Assembly: GCF_000828475.1 (NCBI RefSeq)
Contig: NZ_AP014648.1
Location: forward strand, 2,615,400-2,679,399
Origin: Methyloceanibacter caenitepidi
Lineage (GTDB): Bacteria; Pseudomonadota; Alphaproteobacteria; Rhizobiales; Methyloligellaceae
Direction: 5' to 3'
DNA length: 64,000 nucleotides
The notes below the pieces were generated by a model. It had not been told where the DNA came from, did no database searches, and saw nothing but the letters and a program-made list of their open reading frames with translations. Every line of letters begins with the position of its first letter. Positions within the stretch are counted from its first letter, which is position 1. Positions 4,718 to 61,840 of this stretch are shown piece after piece. The position numbers and the translations under genes were made by a program.

Positions 4718-5152
4718 TCACTTGTCGTCCGGAAATCTAAAGGCGGCCACGGCGCGCCGCCGCCACCAAACGCCTAAGGGCACCTCGACGACGCCGAGAC
4801 CTTCCTGAGCGTGGATCATGTGATCGCCGTCGGCGAGAATCCCCGCATGCTTGGCAACGCCCTTGTCGCGCATGCGGAACACGAGCACGTCGCCCGCCAG
4901 CGCGTCGGACACGCTGCCGAGCGGCACCAAATGCCGGCAGGCGGCGGCGATCAGCGTCTCCGAGCCGGTCGCATTGCCCCAGTCGCGGCTATACGGCGGC
5001 ATGGCCTCGGGCTCCGGCCCGTACAGCGCACGCCACACCCCGCGGATGAGGCCGAGGCAGTCGCAGCCGGCCCCGCGCACGCTCCCCTGATGGTGATAGG
5101 GCGTGCCGAGCCAGCCGCGCGCGCACTGAACGATGGCATCGGGTTGGGGCAT
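4718..5152 (-). CDS. NlpC/P60 family cell-wall peptidase of the GTA tail (gp14 type)
   Basis: 144 residues starting MPQPDAIVQCARGWLGTPYH. ATG at 5152 was chosen because the conserved domain begins right there, with GAGAAAG upstream; the longer frame to 5212 adds only basic, non-conserved residues. The catalytic cysteine is probably Cys32 in GAGCDCLGLIRG, with a histidine downstream in VAKHAGI, the usual NlpC/P60 Cys-His arrangement. In RcGTA this protein sits in the baseplate and cuts recipient peptidoglycan during DNA entry. Length and position between the DUF2163 gene and the tail-tip gene match the GTA layout. Confidence 0.92.
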   Translation of the reverse strand: MPQPDAIVQCARGWLGTPYHHQGSVRGAGCDCLGLIRGVWRALYGPEPEAMPPYSRDWGNATGSETLIAAACRHLVPLGSVSDALAGDVLVFRMRDKGVAKHAGILADGDHMIHAQEGLGVVEVPLGVWWRRRAVAAFRFPDDK

Positions 5153-5288
5153 ATGCTTTCTCGAATCCGTGCGCACTCGGCGCTCATCATGCCGCCATCG
5201 GCGCGGCTTCATTTCGGCGCAATCCGGGCGGCATGCTCATGATGGACCCCGGCGATCCCCGCCGGGGTTGTCCTTGAGACAGACAGTC

Positions 5289-5390
5289 ATGAACGCGGAA
5301 GACCCGAAGAGCAGACTTCCTTACGTCTACACTTGGCTTGGGACGGCGGCCGTCATCGCCGCACTCATCTACCTGTTTCACTTCATATAG
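5289..5390 (+). CDS. possible 33-residue single-pass membrane protein
   Basis: A small frame beginning MNAEDPKSRLPYVYTWLG followed by a hydrophobic stretch ending LIYLFHFI, consistent with one membrane segment. It lies on the strand opposite the tail genes, in the 339-bp gap between the DUF2163 and peptidase genes. No clear ribosome binding site is visible, and a GC-rich hairpin (5247-5267) precedes it. Not recognised as a family; it may be a real small protein or chance. Confidence 0.35.
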   Translation: MNAEDPKSRLPYVYTWLGTAAVIAALIYLFHFI

Positions 5391-5491
5391 AGCCCGCAAC
5401 GATGACCGAGGCCTCGTGACCTGCGGCGACGCACTCAGGCAGGACCGCGTCCTGCATCGGAACGGCGCCGGAAACCTGTCGGCGGGGCCCC

Positions 5492-6382
5492 TCACCGCAC
5501 CCGGCCCCCGTCGTTCTTGTCTGAGCGGCTGACGACGCGGAGCATGAAGTCGTTGCCGGGCACGTGGGGGAAGCCGCGGAAGTTAGCCGTGTTCGAAAAC
5601 TTGGCGCGGCAGGTGCCGAATTGCTTGTCGCAGCCGGCCTGCACCTTGAAGCCGTCCCCGGCCGCAATCGCTTCCGACGGCCGCTGCCACAGCTCGATCG
5701 TGACGCCGCTTGAGGCCTTGGCATGTAGCTTCACTTCGCTCGTGCGCCCGTCGTTGGCGCCCGATTCCCACGTCAGCAGACCGCGCGTGAACCAGTTCGA
5801 CGCGTGAGCCTCCAAACCGCTCGCCGTGAAACGCCGGGGCGAGGCATCGAGGCTCGCCACCGTGCCGTCCGCCGAAAATGCCGCCTGGTCCAGATCGATC
5901 TTGCAGCGCGCATCGCCGAGATCCGCATCACAGCCATATTGGATGATACGGCCCTTCGGCTGCTGCAGCGCGTGGGCGAGCCCGCGCACCTCGCAGCGGA
6001 AATGATGCGCCCCGCGCGACACCTCGCCGAGATTGCCGGTGCGCATGAGCACACGATGGTCCGGGTCCGCCCAGTTCACGCGGTAGATCTCGATGGCCGC
6101 GTTGTCGAACAGGCCCGCGGCGAGATCCGCCTCGTTCAACCGGTCCGATTTGAGGGCGCCGTCCACGTCGAGCGTGTCCACGTTGAGCCCCACGGCGCTG
6201 GCGATCTCCGAGCCGGTGAAGCCGCTCGCGGCTTCATAGAGGGTGCCGCCGAATTCGAGATCGCGGTCGTGGTCCGTGAAGCCGAACGAGACCGCATCGT
6301 TGCGCGTGATGCGCCAGCACCAGCACAGCGTCGTGGCGCCGCTGTCGAGATGATCCTGCAGCGCGGACGAGATCGCTCTCAT
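5492..6382 (-). CDS. DUF2163 tail hub protein (GTA gp13 type)
   Basis: 296 residues starting MRAISSALQDHLDSGATTL. The ATG at 6382 overlaps the stop of the DUF2460 gene (ATGA, 6379-6382) and has GGAGGTG in front. DUF2163 / phage BR0599 family proteins carry the motifs seen here: TLCWCWRITRNDAVSFGFTD near the N-terminus, C-terminal cysteines in YGCDADLGDARC, and GCDKQFGTCRAKFSN near the end. In RcGTA the homologue is part of the baseplate hub with bound iron-sulfur; whether these cysteines bind a cluster here is inference. Confidence 0.92.
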   Translation of the reverse strand: MRAISSALQDHLDSGATTLCWCWRITRNDAVSFGFTDHDRDLEFGGTLYEAASGFTGSEIASAVGLNVDTLDVDGALKSDRLNEADLAAGLFDNAAIEIYRVNWADPDHRVLMRTGNLGEVSRGAHHFRCEVRGLAHALQQPKGRIIQYGCDADLGDARCKIDLDQAAFSADGTVASLDASPRRFTASGLEAHASNWFTRGLLTWESGANDGRTSEVKLHAKASSGVTIELWQRPSEAIAAGDGFKVQAGCDKQFGTCRAKFSNTANFRGFPHVPGNDFMLRVVSRSDKNDGGRVR

Positions 6383-7014
6383 AGGCGCACCTCCATAATG
6401 GGAATTTGCGGGATCGAGCCTGCGTCGAAATCGCTGAGATCGATCTCGAGGCGGTCCGTGTCGAAGCGCACGGCCACGTCGAATTCGAAGCCCGCCGTGA
6501 CGGGCGCGTCTAGGGGCGGCACCGCGCCGGGCAGGAACGTCACGAGCCCGGTATTGGTGCCGAGCGCGTAAGTCTCCGGGTCCTGCACCACGCCATCGAC
6601 CGCGACGGAGACCGTGCCCGGCACGGGAAGCAGAACCGTGCGCGACCAGGGGGCGTATCCGCTGCCATAGGTCTTGACGAGCTGGAACGCCGCCGTCGCG
6701 CCGTCGCCTATGCCGATCGCCTGATCTGTGGCGGCGGGCGTCTCGGACGGCGCGCAGGATTTGTAGTCGCTCCAATCCTTCCAACGGAAAGCATGCAGCC
6801 GCCCGCGCCGCTCTTCGAAAAAGGCGAGCACGGCGTGCAGATCGTCGAGGCTCTTGATGCCGTAGCCAGCATCGTAACGCCGCTTGGAGTCGGCCCAGCG
6901 GCTGTTGCGTTCCTCGTAGCCGGAGCCGAGCACCACGATCTCGGTGCGCCGTTCCGGCCCGCCCCGGCTGCCGCGTGTCACAGCGGTCGGAAAGCGCACA
7001 TCGTGAAAGGCCAT
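6379..7014 (-). CDS. DUF2460 distal tail protein (GTA gp12 type, TIGR02217)
   Basis: 211 residues, a typical family length. It starts MAFHDVRFPTAVTRGSRGGP and contains the conserved RNSRWADSKRRYDAGYG and AFRWKDWSDYKSC segments of TIGR02217/DUF2460. In RcGTA the corresponding protein is the distal tail protein joining the tail tube to the hub. It is translationally coupled to the DUF2163 gene by a 4-bp overlap and lies 30 bp after the tape-measure stop. Confidence 0.93.
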   Translation of the reverse strand: MAFHDVRFPTAVTRGSRGGPERRTEIVVLGSGYEERNSRWADSKRRYDAGYGIKSLDDLHAVLAFFEERRGRLHAFRWKDWSDYKSCAPSETPAATDQAIGIGDGATAAFQLVKTYGSGYAPWSRTVLLPVPGTVSVAVDGVVQDPETYALGTNTGLVTFLPGAVPPLDAPVTAGFEFDVAVRFDTDRLEIDLSDFDAGSIPQIPIMEVRL

Positions 7015-7044
7015 TGGTCCGTGCTCCGCCTAATGATTGCGCTG

Positions 7045-7623
7045 CTAAAGGTTTCGTTGCCCGCGCCCGACAGTGCGGGAAAGCATGGCCGCGAGTTGCC
7101 CTTCGGACCGGCGGAAGCTCTCCGCGTCCGGCGTAGTCACGTTGAAGGTGACGTTGACCGCGCGCCCTGCTCCGTCCGCCTGCACGCCGAGCCGGCCGTC
7201 TTTTGCGCGCGCGAGCGGCAGCACCGCCTCCGGCCCCGCCTCACCCGCGAGCCCGCGCGGAGCCCCCTGCCCGAGCGGAAACGTCATGGGCGAGGAGATC
7301 ACCCCGCCCTTGGCAAACGGCACGGGCAGCGCGCTGCCGAGGCCCGCACCGGTGACGAGCCCGGACAGCGCATCGCCGAAGGTCTTGCTGATGGGCGCGA
7401 GCGCGGCCTCCAGCGTATTCTGCGACAGGTTCAGCGCGAGCTGGCGGACAACGTCCGACAGTTCGCGGCCCTTGAGCGTTGCGTCCGTGAAGGCGTTCGT
7501 CAGATTGCCGGCGAAGCTCGCACTCAGCCGGCTCGCGTCCGCGAGCGCGGCGCGCAACGGCGCGATATCGCCGCCAATGACGACGTAAAGCCCGTCGCGA
7601 TCATCCGGCATGCGTCTCTCCAT
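7045..7623 (-). CDS. short phage tail tape measure protein (GTA gp11 type)
   Basis: 192 residues, slightly shorter than its RcGTA counterpart, which implies a very short tail. Features are an N-terminal amphipathic region (VVIGGDIAPLRAALADASRL), a helical middle (LALNLSQNTLEAALAPISKT) and a Gly-rich segment (LPVPFAKGGVI, GEAGPEAVLPLA), the signature of GTA/lambda-family tape measures. It overlaps the chaperone gene by 23 bp. The start could be ATG 7623 or ATG 7611 (MPDDRDG). Confidence 0.88.
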   Translation of the reverse strand: MERRMPDDRDGLYVVIGGDIAPLRAALADASRLSASFAGNLTNAFTDATLKGRELSDVVRQLALNLSQNTLEAALAPISKTFGDALSGLVTGAGLGSALPVPFAKGGVISSPMTFPLGQGAPRGLAGEAGPEAVLPLARAKDGRLGVQADGAGRAVNVTFNVTTPDAESFRRSEGQLAAMLSRTVGRGQRNL

Positions 7624-57097: not shown

Positions 57098-57693
57098 TGG
57101 CCCGGAAGACGACCTCCAAATCCCGGAGTAGCACGTCGACTCGCCGGCGCCCAACGCGGATGACGCGGCAAACGCTCATCAACCAGTTGGGGCGGGCCAT
57201 CGCCCTGCTGCTCGTGCTGGGGCTGGTGCTGCTGCTCAACCGCTATTGCGGGATGGAGACCGAAGAGATCGGTCCGGGCGCGAAGCTCGTTGCCGTCGAC
57301 GGCGACTCGCTGCGGGCCGGCAGCGGTGAGGAATACCGCATCTTCGCCATCGACGCGCCGGAGCTCCACCAGACCTGCACCGACGCCAACGGCAAGGAGT
57401 GGGACTGCGGCCGCGCCGCGAAAACCGAACTCGCCAAACTCATCAAGCGCGGCGACGTGTCGTGCGTCGAGAAGGCGACCGACAAATACGGCCGCAACGT
57501 CGCCCAGTGCCGGGCCAAGGGCGTGCCGGATATCGGCGAGACCATGGTGCGGGAAGGCTACGCGATCGATCTCGGCCGGCAGACGGGCTACGCCTACGCC
57601 GGCGCCGAAAGCGAGGCCCGCGCGGCCGGCAAAGGCATCTGGGCCGGAACCTTCCAGCGCCCCGGCGAATGGCGCGAGCAAAACCCGCGTTAA
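57097..57693 (+). CDS. membrane-anchored thermonuclease (SNase) family protein
   Basis: 198 residues. A basic N-terminus, a membrane segment (LGRAIALLLVLGLVLLLN, about 30-48), then the SNase domain: DGDSLRAGSGEEYRIFAIDA, APELHQTC, CVEKATDKYGRNVAQCRAKG and YAIDLGRQTGYAYAGAESEA. Catalytic Arg/Glu positions are plausible (EEYRIFAIDAPE; ATDKYGRNV). It would face the periplasm. Coupled to the transglycosylase by a TAATG junction. Confidence 0.88.
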   Translation: MARKTTSKSRSSTSTRRRPTRMTRQTLINQLGRAIALLLVLGLVLLLNRYCGMETEEIGPGAKLVAVDGDSLRAGSGEEYRIFAIDAPELHQTCTDANGKEWDCGRAAKTELAKLIKRGDVSCVEKATDKYGRNVAQCRAKGVPDIGETMVREGYAIDLGRQTGYAYAGAESEARAAGKGIWAGTFQRPGEWREQNPR

Positions 57694-58075
57694 GATTGAA
57701 CGCGCCAGCACGGCGGCAGCACTGCGGCCACCACTGTCATCGATTTCACGACCGAAGTTGCCTTCCGGTCGGCGCGCGACGAGCTTCGTCGCAGCGCAAG
57801 AGCGCCAGTGTTCGGTCTTTCGCCACCCGCGTGAAGCCGTAGAACGTGTTCACCGAAGGCAGTCTCCACGCCCTCGCCGTTGCTCAGGGGCGGCGCCAGC
57901 CCCGCATAATCGCGCGCTCGAAGAGTGCGCCGCATTACACGCTCGGTAACGCGCCATCGCCGAAATGTGACAGGGTTTGAGGCGAGTCTCGTCTCAAGCG
58001 CTGGTAGCGTTCTCGCGCGCACCAGACCAACGAGGTGCGCTAGGAAGAAACCCCAACGAAACCTGGAGTGCAAAC
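57694..58075. other. intergenic region upstream of bufA
   Basis: 382 bp with no supported gene. GTGAC (about 57967) and CGTCT (about 57990) form only a weak candidate for an ECF-type promoter before bufA. Confidence 0.4.
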
Positions 58076-58333
58076 ATGAAGCTGAATGGAAAATCCGGCG
58101 CAGCGATCGCCGGAGCAGCAGCCGTATTGGTGCTTACCGCTACGGCTCCGTTGACGCCTGCCGCTGCCGCCGCCGACGTTCAATGCTTCGGGCTCAATTC
58201 CTGTAAGGGCCAGGGCCAATGCAAAACGTCAGCGAATTCGTGCAAAGGCCAGAATAGCTGCAAGGGCAAAGGCTTTATCATGATGGACAAAGCCAGCTGC
58301 CTGTCCCAGGGCGGAAGCTTGAGCCTCGGCTAA
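58076..58333 (+). CDS. bufA: BufA-type bufferin precursor (DUF2282, copper-binding RiPP family)
   Basis: 85 residues. Signal peptide with AGAAAVLVLTATAPLTPAAA, then a Cys-rich mature part: VQCFGLNSCKGQGQCKTSAN, SCKGQNSCKGKGF and KASCLSQGG (six cysteines). This is the DUF2282 pattern recently named bufferins; in known cases the MNIO enzyme BufB (DUF692) with BufC (DUF2063) converts cysteines to copper-binding thiooxazoles. GGAG precedes the ATG. No bufB or bufC gene follows here; the next gene is on the other strand, after a terminator. Confidence 0.85.
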   Translation: MKLNGKSGAAIAGAAAVLVLTATAPLTPAAAAADVQCFGLNSCKGQGQCKTSANSCKGQNSCKGKGFIMMDKASCLSQGGSLSLG

Positions 58334-58340
58334 GCCTTCC

Positions 58341-58385
58341 GTGAGCCGAGACTTCTCGACCTCAAGGTCTGGAGTCTCGGCTCAC
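58341..58385 (+). terminator. terminator-like hairpin after bufA
   Basis: Perfect 13-bp arms GTGAGCCGAGACT (58341-58353) and AGTCTCGGCTCAC (58373-58385), followed by TCTATCCTTC, 8 bp past the bufA stop. Confidence 0.8.
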
Positions 58386-58413: not shown

Positions 58414-58484
58414 CTACGCGGCCTTGGCGTAGCAGGACTTCAGCTGGTTCATGACCTGAGCCTTGTCGAACTCGGCGCCCATGA
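58414..58484 (-). pseudogene. remnant of a second aminotransferase copy (3' end only)
   Basis: Read on the minus strand the fragment encodes GAEFDKAQVMNQLKSCYAKA then Ala and TAG, against ...KSYYAKAA* at the end of the intact aminotransferase (60611-60681). Over about 71 bp only four substitutions are visible. Upstream similarity ends abruptly at about 58485. There is no start, so it is a truncated duplicate. Confidence 0.85.
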
Positions 58485-58554
58485 CCGGAATGGCGCCAGC
58501 AGAACCCGCGCATCAACTGACCTTTCGTCGCTTGCTCTGATCGAACCTCGGCGC

Positions 58555-60567
58555 CTAAGGCGTAGCGGGCTTTTGTTCCGTGAACGTCCAATATCGGCCG
58601 CTATCGGTCGTCACTGGTGCAAGCCGCGAGCGCTTGTCCGGGCGTTTGCCTTCGAGAATGAGATCGCGCAGATCGCCGAGCACCGTGTCCGAGTCCCCGT
58701 AATAGCCGTGCCCCACGAAGTCGGTCCGAATGGCGCTGGCATCGATCGTGTCGACACCCGGCGCAATGATCACGCCATCGGCCGTGTCGCCCGCGCGCGG
58801 ATAGCCGGCAAAGGTCTTTGAGGCCAGCAGCGCATAGTCGCCTGATGAGGCATACAGCGTCGTCTTGCCCTCCCCTGCCAGGATCTTCGGCGCGATGTCG
58901 CGCTTGAACGTGTCCGCGTCGATATCGGGCGCCGCAAGGATGATCTCGTCGAACTTGTCGCGGATACTCGGGTCTTCCAGCACGAGCTCCTTCAGCGCGC
59001 CGGTCAGGACACGCGTCCCCATGCTGTGGGCGATGAGATAGATGTGCTCCGCGCCGGACTGCGCGACGAAGTCCTTCAGGAAGTTCTTGAAGTCGAGCCG
59101 CGCCCACTCGGCGTTCGTCTCGTCCACCTTGTACGAGGCGTAGCTCGCTTGCGATGGCCAGCTATAGAGCACCGGCGCGCCACCGAAGCCGAGGTCGTAG
59201 GTCATCTGCGCCGTGCGCCGCACGGCATCGACAAAGGCCACGTTGTAGCCATGCACGAAGACGAAGGCGGACTTGCGGTCCGAACTCTTCACGCGGGCCA
59301 CGACGTCTTCGAAGAATTTTTCCTTGTCGACCTCGTCCACCGAAAGCAGGACCACGAACTGTTCCGGGTCGTTGCACCATTCGAGCCGCCAGATCGACGG
59401 GGTTTCGACGACGCCGACCTTGTGTTGGGGCGGGATGCTGACCTCCGCGACGCCGAACGTCAGCGGTCCCCTGTCGCCGCCATAGACGGAGGCCGGATCG
59501 GTCTTGCCGGTGTTCTTGCGATCTGTGGCGTAGAAGACCTTTACCACCGCGTAAGAGGTCTCCTGGCGCAAATAGGCATAGCGATGCTTCTTCTTGCCTT
59601 CGAGCTTGCGGGCGGCGGCAAACGTCTTCTCCGCTTCCTTGGTGCGGCCCGCAGCCATGTAGATCCCAGCCAGCGCCTCCATCGTCGCGATGGACTTTTC
59701 GTTGCGTGCGCCGTACGCGGCTTGCCGGATGGACAGCGCGCGCTTCATCGAGCGCACCGCGTCCTTGTAGCGCTTGGCGCTCTGATAGAGATAGGCAAGC
59801 TGCTCGGCACTATCGGCCACCTCGACGCTGCGCGGGCCGAACGCGGCGACGCGGATCGCGAGAGCCTTCTTCAGCAGCGCCTCGGCCTTGCCGAAATCGC
59901 CCTGCTGCTGGTAGACGAACGCGGCTTCGAGCAGCGCCGGCACCAGTCCCGGCTGATCGGCGCCATATCGTTCCTTGGCCAGCGCCACATAGTGGTCCGC
60001 CAGCCGGGCGGCTTTCGCGTCCTTGCCCTTCGCCTGAAGCTCCTGAATTTCGGCCGGCAGCGCCTCGAGCATGCCGCGCCCAACCGCCTTCGCGCGGATG
60101 GCCTCCACGCGGACGAGAAGCGGCTCGGCGTCCGCAGCCCGGTCCTGCTGCTGGTAGACGCCGGCGAGATTGTTCAGGCTGGTCGCAACGAGCGGATGGT
60201 CTGGCCCGTAGGCCTTCTCGCGGATCGCAAGAGCCTGCTTGAGCAGGGGCTCGGCGTCGGCATAGCGCTGTTGTTGGCTGTAGACCCAGCCGAGCCAGGT
60301 GAGCGCCGTGGCGTATTCGGGACTGTCCTTGCCGGTCTCGGCGCCGGCCTCCGCCACATAGCGCTGCGCCAGGGCCTCTGCCGCGTTCATCTTGGCGCGT
60401 GCCGCAAGCGCGGGAATTTCGCGGCTGATCTCGGAAAAGTCTTCAGGCTCTTCCGCTTGCGCGCGGATGCCTGGAACGAAGAGGAAGGAAAGCGCGATCA
60501 GCGCCACGGCCAAGGGCACGGGCGCTGATCGCAGTGTTCTAACAATCCGGCGGCCTTGCGAAGCCAT
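58555..60567 (-). CDS. secreted TPR protein with C-terminal DUF900 alpha/beta-hydrolase
   Basis: 670 residues. Signal peptide (PLAVALIALSFLFVPGIRAQ, cleavage near AQA-EE). TPR repeats at about 60-330 (YATALTWLGWVYSQQQRYAD, VATSLNNLAGVYQQQDRAAD and further). DUF900 hydrolase at about 345-640: VKVFYATDRKNTGK, FVFVHGYNVAFVDAVRRTAQ, nucleophile Ser in LIAHSMGTRVLTGAL and His in DFVGHGYYGDS. The TPR-DUF900 fusion probably acts in the periplasm; substrate unknown. Flanked by the intact and broken aminotransferase ends. Confidence 0.88.
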   Translation of the reverse strand: MASQGRRIVRTLRSAPVPLAVALIALSFLFVPGIRAQAEEPEDFSEISREIPALAARAKMNAAEALAQRYVAEAGAETGKDSPEYATALTWLGWVYSQQQRYADAEPLLKQALAIREKAYGPDHPLVATSLNNLAGVYQQQDRAADAEPLLVRVEAIRAKAVGRGMLEALPAEIQELQAKGKDAKAARLADHYVALAKERYGADQPGLVPALLEAAFVYQQQGDFGKAEALLKKALAIRVAAFGPRSVEVADSAEQLAYLYQSAKRYKDAVRSMKRALSIRQAAYGARNEKSIATMEALAGIYMAAGRTKEAEKTFAAARKLEGKKKHRYAYLRQETSYAVVKVFYATDRKNTGKTDPASVYGGDRGPLTFGVAEVSIPPQHKVGVVETPSIWRLEWCNDPEQFVVLLSVDEVDKEKFFEDVVARVKSSDRKSAFVFVHGYNVAFVDAVRRTAQMTYDLGFGGAPVLYSWPSQASYASYKVDETNAEWARLDFKNFLKDFVAQSGAEHIYLIAHSMGTRVLTGALKELVLEDPSIRDKFDEIILAAPDIDADTFKRDIAPKILAGEGKTTLYASSGDYALLASKTFAGYPRAGDTADGVIIAPGVDTIDASAIRTDFVGHGYYGDSDTVLGDLRDLILEGKRPDKRSRLAPVTTDSGRYWTFTEQKPATP

Positions 60568-60610: not shown

Positions 60611-61840
60611 TTACGCGGCCTTCGCGTAGTAGGACTTCAGCTGGTTCATCACCTGAGCCTTGTCGAACTCGGCGCCCATGGCGAGCATGGCGTCGGCGAA
60701 ACGGCTGACGATCTCGGTGATCTGCTCAGGCGAAAGCTGGTTGAGGATACCGATACGGACCTGAACCGGCTCGGACAGGGTCGGCCAGATGCCGAAGCCC
60801 TGCGCGCGTGCGCCCTGGACCAGCTCCTTCTCGCGGCCGGCCAGCTTGCCTGGCAGGTTCAGCACCACAAGGCTCGGCATGTTCGACGTGACCTCGCAGC
60901 CCATGGCCTCGACGGCCTGGCGCAGCGCGGCTTCGTGATACTTGTAGTCCGACGCCTTGCGGGCGCGGCCATAGCCCAGAATGATGCGGAGCGCCTCGTG
61001 GAACGCGGCGATCGCATAACCAGAGTGCGTCTGGTGGTAGACCGGCGCATCGACGTCCTTGCCGTCGATGATGCCCCAGTGCCGTGCATCCAGGATCGGA
61101 TGATGGACATAGGTGCGGCAACCCCGCTTCTTGACCACCTCGATCGCCTTGTCGGTGAAGCTCACCGGCGCGTAGGTCAGCGGCAGGGACAGCACGCCCT
61201 TCTGCGGACAGGAGGCCCAGGCCACGACTCCCGGATAGTCGTCGATATTGAAGTCGCCGACGCCAAGGCTCGAGACGGCATCGACCATGCCCATGACACC
61301 ATGCTTCACGCAGGCATCCGAGAAGCCCTTGAGGTCGTTCACGCGGCCCGAACCCGTTTCCCAGTGCGCCATGAAGGCCCACATCGGCTTGTGCTCGGCG
61401 AGGGCCTTGTCGATGGTCTCGGCGGAAATGGACTGGCCGTGCGGCGTGTCGATGATCGTCACGCTGGCCGGCTTCGGATCGAGCGAGTTCTCGGCGAGCT
61501 CCTCATCGGTGGCGGCCTTCATGCGAATGGTCAGGCCGTCGATGCTGGAAAAGGTGCCGTTGACGAAGGCCACGACCTTGTCACCGGGAAGGATTAGGCT
61601 GTGCATGCAATCGAGACCGTCCCAGCCCGTGCCGGCGACGCCGAAGGTGTAGACATTCTTGGTGCCCCACAGTTCGCGGAGCATCAGCTTCGCCTCCTTC
61701 ATGCCGCGGAGAACGTCCGCCTGCATGTGGTCGGCGACGCCGGTCTTGGCAAACGCCTCGAGCACGCGCGGATCCGTGTTGCCGGGCCCGGGGCCTGCGG
61801 CAAGGGTCTCCGGGATTACGAGCGCTGGAAATACAGTCAT
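60611..61840 (-). CDS. alanine/serine-glyoxylate aminotransferase family protein
   Basis: 409 residues. PLP Lys214 in SCPQKGVLSLPL, Asp187 in GMVDAVSSLGVG, GPGPGNTDPRVLEAF at the N-terminus and AFMAHWETGSGRVN. It belongs to class-V aminotransferases that include serine-glyoxylate aminotransferase (serine cycle) and alanine-glyoxylate aminotransferase. The N-terminus (VIPETLAAGPGPGNTDPRVL) differs from Methylobacterium SgaA, so the exact substrate is unsure. A 3' copy fragment lies at 58414-58484. Confidence 0.87.
   Translation of the reverse strand: MTVFPALVIPETLAAGPGPGNTDPRVLEAFAKTGVADHMQADVLRGMKEAKLMLRELWGTKNVYTFGVAGTGWDGLDCMHSLILPGDKVVAFVNGTFSSIDGLTIRMKAATDEELAENSLDPKPASVTIIDTPHGQSISAETIDKALAEHKPMWAFMAHWETGSGRVNDLKGFSDACVKHGVMGMVDAVSSLGVGDFNIDDYPGVVAWASCPQKGVLSLPLTYAPVSFTDKAIEVVKKRGCRTYVHHPILDARHWGIIDGKDVDAPVYHQTHSGYAIAAFHEALRIILGYGRARKASDYKYHEAALRQAVEAMGCEVTSNMPSLVVLNLPGKLAGREKELVQGARAQGFGIWPTLSEPVQVRIGILNQLSPEQITEIVSRFADAMLAMGAEFDKAQVMNQLKSYYAKAA

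Follow-up and report, generated by a model that had tools for sequence, protein, structure and literature searches.

The locus examined here carries a bufferin precursor gene, bufA2, with no maturation enzyme gene beside it, and so raises two questions: how a lone precursor gene came to lie at this place, and whether its product could be matured by BufB and BufC enzymes encoded elsewhere in the genome. The window, meaning the whole stretch of DNA that was analysed, is 64 kb long and covers positions 2,615,400-2,679,399 of the Methyloceanibacter caenitepidi genome, a single contig of 3,424,964 bases. Window coordinates are used unless a contig prefix is given. The features of the locus are as follows.

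57100-57693, + strand: SNase-family nuclease gene (PF00565), the left flank
57714-57842, + strand: 5'-truncated remnant of a small secreted-protein gene (77.7% DNA identity over 130 aligned positions to the congener G012)
57977-57997, no strand assigned: imperfect palindrome TTGAGGCGAG-T-CTCGTCTCAA upstream of bufA, a candidate operator that was not significant
58076-58333, + strand: orphan bufA2 gene for a Buf2-type bufferin precursor (NF050166 match)
58341-58385, + strand: terminator-like hairpin with a 13-bp perfect stem, a 19-nt loop and a weak T tail
58415-58495, - strand: 81-bp remnant of the sga 3' end (91.4% identity to the end of the intact gene at 60612-60692)
58555-60567, - strand: TPR and DUF900 hydrolase gene, the right flank, patchy in the genus

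The orphan gene encodes an intact Buf2-type precursor

The orphan reading frame is intact, running from an ATG at 58076, with GGAG just 5' of it, to a stop codon at 58333, and encodes 85 amino acids including six cysteines. The protein scored 89.2 bits against NCBIfam model NF050166 (Cu_RiPP_BufA2; curated cut-off 60), and the only Pfam match was to DUF7640, sub-threshold. Its N-terminal leader is Sec-like (MKLNGKSGAAIAGAAAVLVL) and aligned with the leaders of 36 other BufA2 rows, as did all six cysteines with the family cysteines; six conserved cysteines are reported for 90% of Buf2 precursors (PMC12452194). All 18 positions invariant in the 36 rows are kept in the orphan, although the rows were chosen with a pattern demanding part of the Cys motif, so that invariance there is partly built in and some members were missed. 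Of the 34 positions at which 75% or more of the rows agree, the orphan deviates at 4, among them Ala22, which stands where 35 of the 36 rows have a leader glycine. Identity to the two BufA2 proteins of the genome's own operon was about 47-48 and 51-52%, and GC3 was 0.674 versus 0.780-0.874 in eight comparison genes.

The model score, six cysteines, Sec-like leader and conserved residues are those of NF050166 Buf2 (Buf_6/12Cys) bufferins, whereas the lack of adjoining bufB and bufC, the change of the near-invariant leader Gly22 to Ala and the divergence from most of the genus's operon copies set the orphan apart. When the two BufB and two BufC proteins of this genome were used as tblastn queries (E up to 0.01), no bufB or bufC was found within the 64-kb window. 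The original prediction of an orphan bufferin gene is thus borne out by the NF050166 match and the window search.

Maturation enzymes are encoded at two distant operons

Matches over the cut-off to PF05114 (BufB, DUF692) and to PF09836 (BufC, DUF2063) were found at two places each genome-wide, all hundreds of kb from the orphan and belonging to two operons.

about C1:2,328,875-2,331,219 (L009, about 4876-7220): Buf2 operon bufA2-bufA2-bufB-bufC, ~0.34 Mb from the orphan
about C1:3,151,054-3,153,019 (L010): Buf1 operon DUF2282-bufB-bufC, ~0.48 Mb from the orphan

MNIO and DUF2063 genes therefore occur in the same genome as the precursor but do not adjoin it, which makes the orphan, the third BufA2 of the genome, a stand-alone precursor and not a cluster. 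The search for DUF692 and DUF2063 genes proposed with the original prediction thus yielded two bufBC pairs, of which one lies downstream of a tandem of bufA2 genes. That prediction had also named, as evidence against itself, a bufBC pair beside another bufA copy with the present gene unexpressed; the first half of this describes the genome's own operons. Because complete bufBC operons exist elsewhere in the genome, maturation of the orphan product in trans is possible. The Buf2 operon, which shares bufA2 precursors with the orphan locus, is the likely enzyme source, and its single bufBC pair, lying behind a tandem of bufA2 genes, already sits with two differing precursors; tandem precursors are also described in PMC12452194. 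The operon is unlike the orphan in its precursors (47 and 51% identity) and in having a GTCAC...GTGAC element upstream.

Stand-alone bufA2 genes in the order

Across 397 genomes of the order, 57 BufA2 matches over the cut-off were found in 45 genomes. By-eye comparison with the MNIO places among the matches listed placed a downstream same-strand MNIO within 3 kb of 51 of the 57; in one of these, in G397, the MNIO was 2.9 kb off with an opposite-strand ORF between. Five of the 56 assessable genes stood alone (the orphan, G037:C279, G054:C9, G259:C6 and G284:C11), a match in G025 being outside the 56 since its contig ends. An MNIO gene was present elsewhere in all five stand-alone genomes and a bufA2-bufB pair elsewhere in four (by eye; the MNIO matches of these five genomes are complete, and the BufC search covered the orphan's own genome). 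MNIO genes occur in 215 of the 397 genomes anyway, so that this co-occurrence says little by itself. In G259 (L144) the sole MNIO has as neighbours two other short ORFs that contain Cys and carry a leader; the tail of one of these is rich in His and Cys.

A set of named loci comprised 80 among the matches listed, of 546 confirmed, of which 76 were assessable and 4 too short. MNIO was sought in them by tblastn with the two own BufB proteins, with which distant MNIOs could be missed, and lay 61-874 bases downstream in 65 of the 76; among the matches listed, 10 loci had no MNIO in the flanks and 1 had it only upstream on the other strand. The premise that bufB directly follows bufA thus holds for most, not all, of the assessable loci among the matches listed. 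The two sets overlap: named locus L165 is apparently G054:C9, and other genomes are shared too.

Three further apparent orphans were dropped: G001:C137 has an assembly gap before bufB, the contig of G025:C34 ends 54 bases past the match, and G029:C257 is cut by an insertion element, which we take to be IS21-like. In G029 (L089 3204-3386; same family, 80% complete), bufA2 is cut after ~60 codons and the start of a transposase-like gene, presumably of IS21 type, comes next. No MNIO match was found in the G029 genome.

The sections of Antoine et al. 2025 (PMC12452194) used here report that sizeable shares of Buf1 and Buf2 precursors are unlinked to MNIO genes and might be modified by another locus's enzymes or stay unmodified. 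The orphan is like those stand-alone precursors in having no MNIO link and in having MNIO and DUF2063 genes elsewhere, with no difference of principle from what these sections describe, and is a fresh example of an arrangement already in print; the locus history, the missing operon element and the focus on one genus are added here. A literature search joining Methyloceanibacter and bufferin returned no paper on this gene, its matches apparently arising from the word 'buffering'.

History of the locus in congeners

Twelve congeneric stretches were collected with the SNase orthologue. In 9 of the 12, SNase is followed by sga on the opposite strand; sga we take to be the name of the class V aminotransferase gene. 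SNase and sga adjoin in G003, G013, G006, G009 and G005, and are separated by the TPR-DUF900 hydrolase gene in G014, G004, G002 and G012. The genes are rearranged in G015 and G010, and the short G011 contig holds SNase only. The hydrolase gene is patchy, being at the locus in G000, G014, G004, G002 and G012 and not there in five others.

No match to the orphan BufA2, BufB or BufC was found in the 12 congeneric stretches (9 with flanks in place), while the own operons, used as controls, matched. The SNase-hydrolase stretch of ~0.86 kb with truncated remnant, bufA, hairpin and sga remnant was seen only in the window; in G014, among the closest relatives, the SNase-hydrolase gap is ~45 bases. In G012 the small secreted-protein gene is open at the equivalent place, between SNase and the hydrolase gene, so that part of the 0.86-kb stretch is older than the window lineage, and G014 and G004 could have undergone a deletion. 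For bufA, gain is a simpler reading than deletion in relatives.

The gene next to bufA had been described as a remnant on the opposite strand, and this was confirmed: it is the sga 3' end, 91% identical to 60612-60692. The remnant upstream, at 57714-57842, went unmentioned in the original prediction. The sga tail remnant now lies beyond the hydrolase gene from intact sga. A whole-genome DNA search with the SNase-hydrolase stretch matched, apart from the stretch, the sga tail (91%) and a 92-base part of operon bufA (75%), and gave no second copy of the stretch and no further copy of the sga remnant.

Phylogeny and homologues of the orphan

In a tree of 37 BufA2 rows, which lacks the operon copies of G001, G006, G009 and G011 and one of the two of G002, ten congeneric operon rows formed a clade (support 100/98) with the orphan outside. 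The eleventh congeneric operon row, G005_opA, the first of the G005 tandem pair, also fell outside it, so that the genus held more than one BufA2 lineage. The G005 locus (L017, G005:C208) has two strongly different BufA2 in tandem with one bufB. In AU tests, forcing the orphan beside operon copy B gave p 0.057, which is not rejected at 0.05; p was 0.019 when it was placed inside the opA group and 0.161 when it was set next to all ten. A recent duplication of the own operon copies is unlikely, given the 100/98 clade and the opA result, while an old genus-level paralogue in place of a gain would be compatible with the p of 0.161.

The best matches by E-value in the 397 genomes of the order were 57-60% identical (G113, G124 and G088), with G235 at 61%. 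Out of 385 genomes of the class, E 1e-18 was passed by the own genome and two more, the latter at 55 and 58% identity. No donor was found among these 397 and 385 genomes. Searches for mobile carriage gave no match in plasmids (E 1e-8) or phages (E 1e-4); among viral contigs there were 73 pattern matches, none confirmed, and a genome-contig scan with the single orphan protein gave 590 pattern matches, none confirmed. The orphan may have arrived by transfer.

Stand-alone rows had longer branches (5 versus 30 other rows, G025 and G680 excluded; Mann-Whitney p 0.0009), a comparison that is biased by denser sampling of the paired rows and was not used as proof. The long branches may mean relaxed constraint.

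Signals around the gene

The hairpin arms, at 58341-58353 and 58373-58385, are 100% complementary over 13 bp with 19 nt between. The folding energy was -35.1 kcal/mol, whereas shuffled sequences averaged -15.9 (z -6.8) and none of 200 did as well, and the stem is stable and GC-rich, as in an intrinsic terminator. The stem is followed by TCTATCCTTC, which falls short of a clean T run. The hairpin is absent from the output of the terminator scan, whose loop limit was 8. It is likely a terminator, though not a textbook one: of the predicted terminator with a 13-bp stem after bufA, the stem was found as described, without the T run and without a listing in the scan.

The upstream palindrome was rejected as an operator, since 32 of 500 shuffles contained a palindrome as good, and so did 26 of 319 window bins. 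It has a 13-mer in common with the hairpin arm (12 of 13 letters): GAGTCTCGKCTCA, with at most one mismatch, occurs at 57984-57996, 58342-58354 and 58372-58384, three times in 64 kb with 0.23 expected. All three copies bracket bufA; two are the arms of one hairpin and hence do not count as independent. The copies could reflect chance, a protein site in common or the boundary of a cassette.

Of the 14 Methyloceanibacter genomes that have a BufA2 locus, 12 carry a 26-bp element (GTCAC...CTTTGAA-N-AGG-N-GTGAC) near a Buf2-operon bufA, and the operon of the window's genome is among these; G011 and G015 are without it by the strict pattern. The own copy (GTCAC...CTTTGAANAGGNGTGAC; L006 1365-1390) is ~110 bases upstream of the operon's first bufA2. 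The element is absent upstream of the orphan by both the strict pattern and a position weight matrix. Shared regulation of orphan and operon was rejected, the orphan upstream region scoring -3.1 versus 45.8-50.5 for the nine rows from which the matrix was built, with 22 of 213 window bins scoring as well as the orphan. Lacking the element, the orphan, if expressed, is probably under control other than the operon's. A promoter scan gave no sigma-70-type match for the orphan; with 0.1 expected by chance, this is little informative.

Interpretation

An intact precursor gene, the absence of local enzyme genes, enzyme genes elsewhere and congeneric loci without bufABC would probably best be read, with some confidence, as a third, stand-alone BufA2 that was gained as a single gene, is matured in trans by BufB/BufC of the Buf2 operon and is exported to buffer copper. 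A single gene with its own hairpin would have been gained between the SNase and hydrolase genes. Once expressed, its product would be recognised and modified in the cytoplasm by BufB/BufC from the operon ~0.34 Mb away, presumably with formation of the Cys-derived thiooxazoles that mark a mature bufferin (captophorin); products of an MNIO-PME1 pair have been assigned as 5-thiooxazoles with a 4-Da loss (PMC13097082). The modified peptide would then be exported by Sec and would bind and buffer periplasmic copper. Single-gene gain is favoured by the position of the orphan outside the clade of 10 of the 11 congeneric operon rows, by its lower GC3 and by the missing 26-bp element. Maturation in trans is favoured by the retention of leader residues and the 18 invariant positions despite ~50% identity to the operon copies, the signal peptide being, according to preliminary results given in the Discussion of PMC12452194, part of the BufB-BufC recognition sequence for Buf1; Ala22 counts against it. 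With the 26-bp element missing, the orphan may lack co-induction with BufBC, or expression altogether.

The peptide could instead stay unmodified and serve as a plain thiol or disulphide binder of copper or another metal under separate control, an alternative that is named in PMC12452194 and would suit a divergent sequence at its own locus, without the genus operon element upstream. It appears unlikely: six cysteines and the family-marking motif residues are all kept, and Table 3 of that paper lists 0 of 864 genomes with Buf2 genes but without MNIO genes. Silence or decay since arrival is about as improbable. The gene stands among two gene remnants, has a lower GC3 and a long branch and is missing at the locus in the congeners examined, to which the promoter scan adds little; yet the reading frame is unbroken and retains all 18 invariant positions, and it has GGAG near the start codon and a strong hairpin behind it. 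The original prediction had further suggested that a bufA-bufB-bufC operon once stood here and lost bufBC through the adjacent rearrangement. Remnants of other genes do mark the spot as rearranged, but the suggestion found no support and is highly improbable, for neither the window nor the locus of nine congeners, which is also without bufA, holds a trace of bufB or bufC, MNIO and DUF2063 genes occur genome-wide only at the two distant operons, and the hairpin lies directly 3' of bufA. A single gained gene would fit better than an operon that lost its rear half.

Under the favoured reading of a single-gene gain with maturation in trans, a broader idea may be put forward tentatively, and is itself rather doubtful: Buf2 precursors may spread as single-gene cassettes of promoter, bufA and hairpin, without enzymes, exploiting the recipient's BufB/BufC. 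Such spread, if true, would widen the set of copper-binding peptides, differently regulated and served by one enzyme pair. Whether one MNIO-partner pair serves several precursors, some encoded elsewhere, is a question left open in the Discussion of PMC12452194. The phenomenon itself has already been described; this genome, from an apparently methylotrophic genus with cultured species, offers a clean case in which the question is directly testable: it has one enzyme pair of each type, Buf2 and Buf1, and, apart from both, a third BufA2 that shares ~50% identity with those of the operon.
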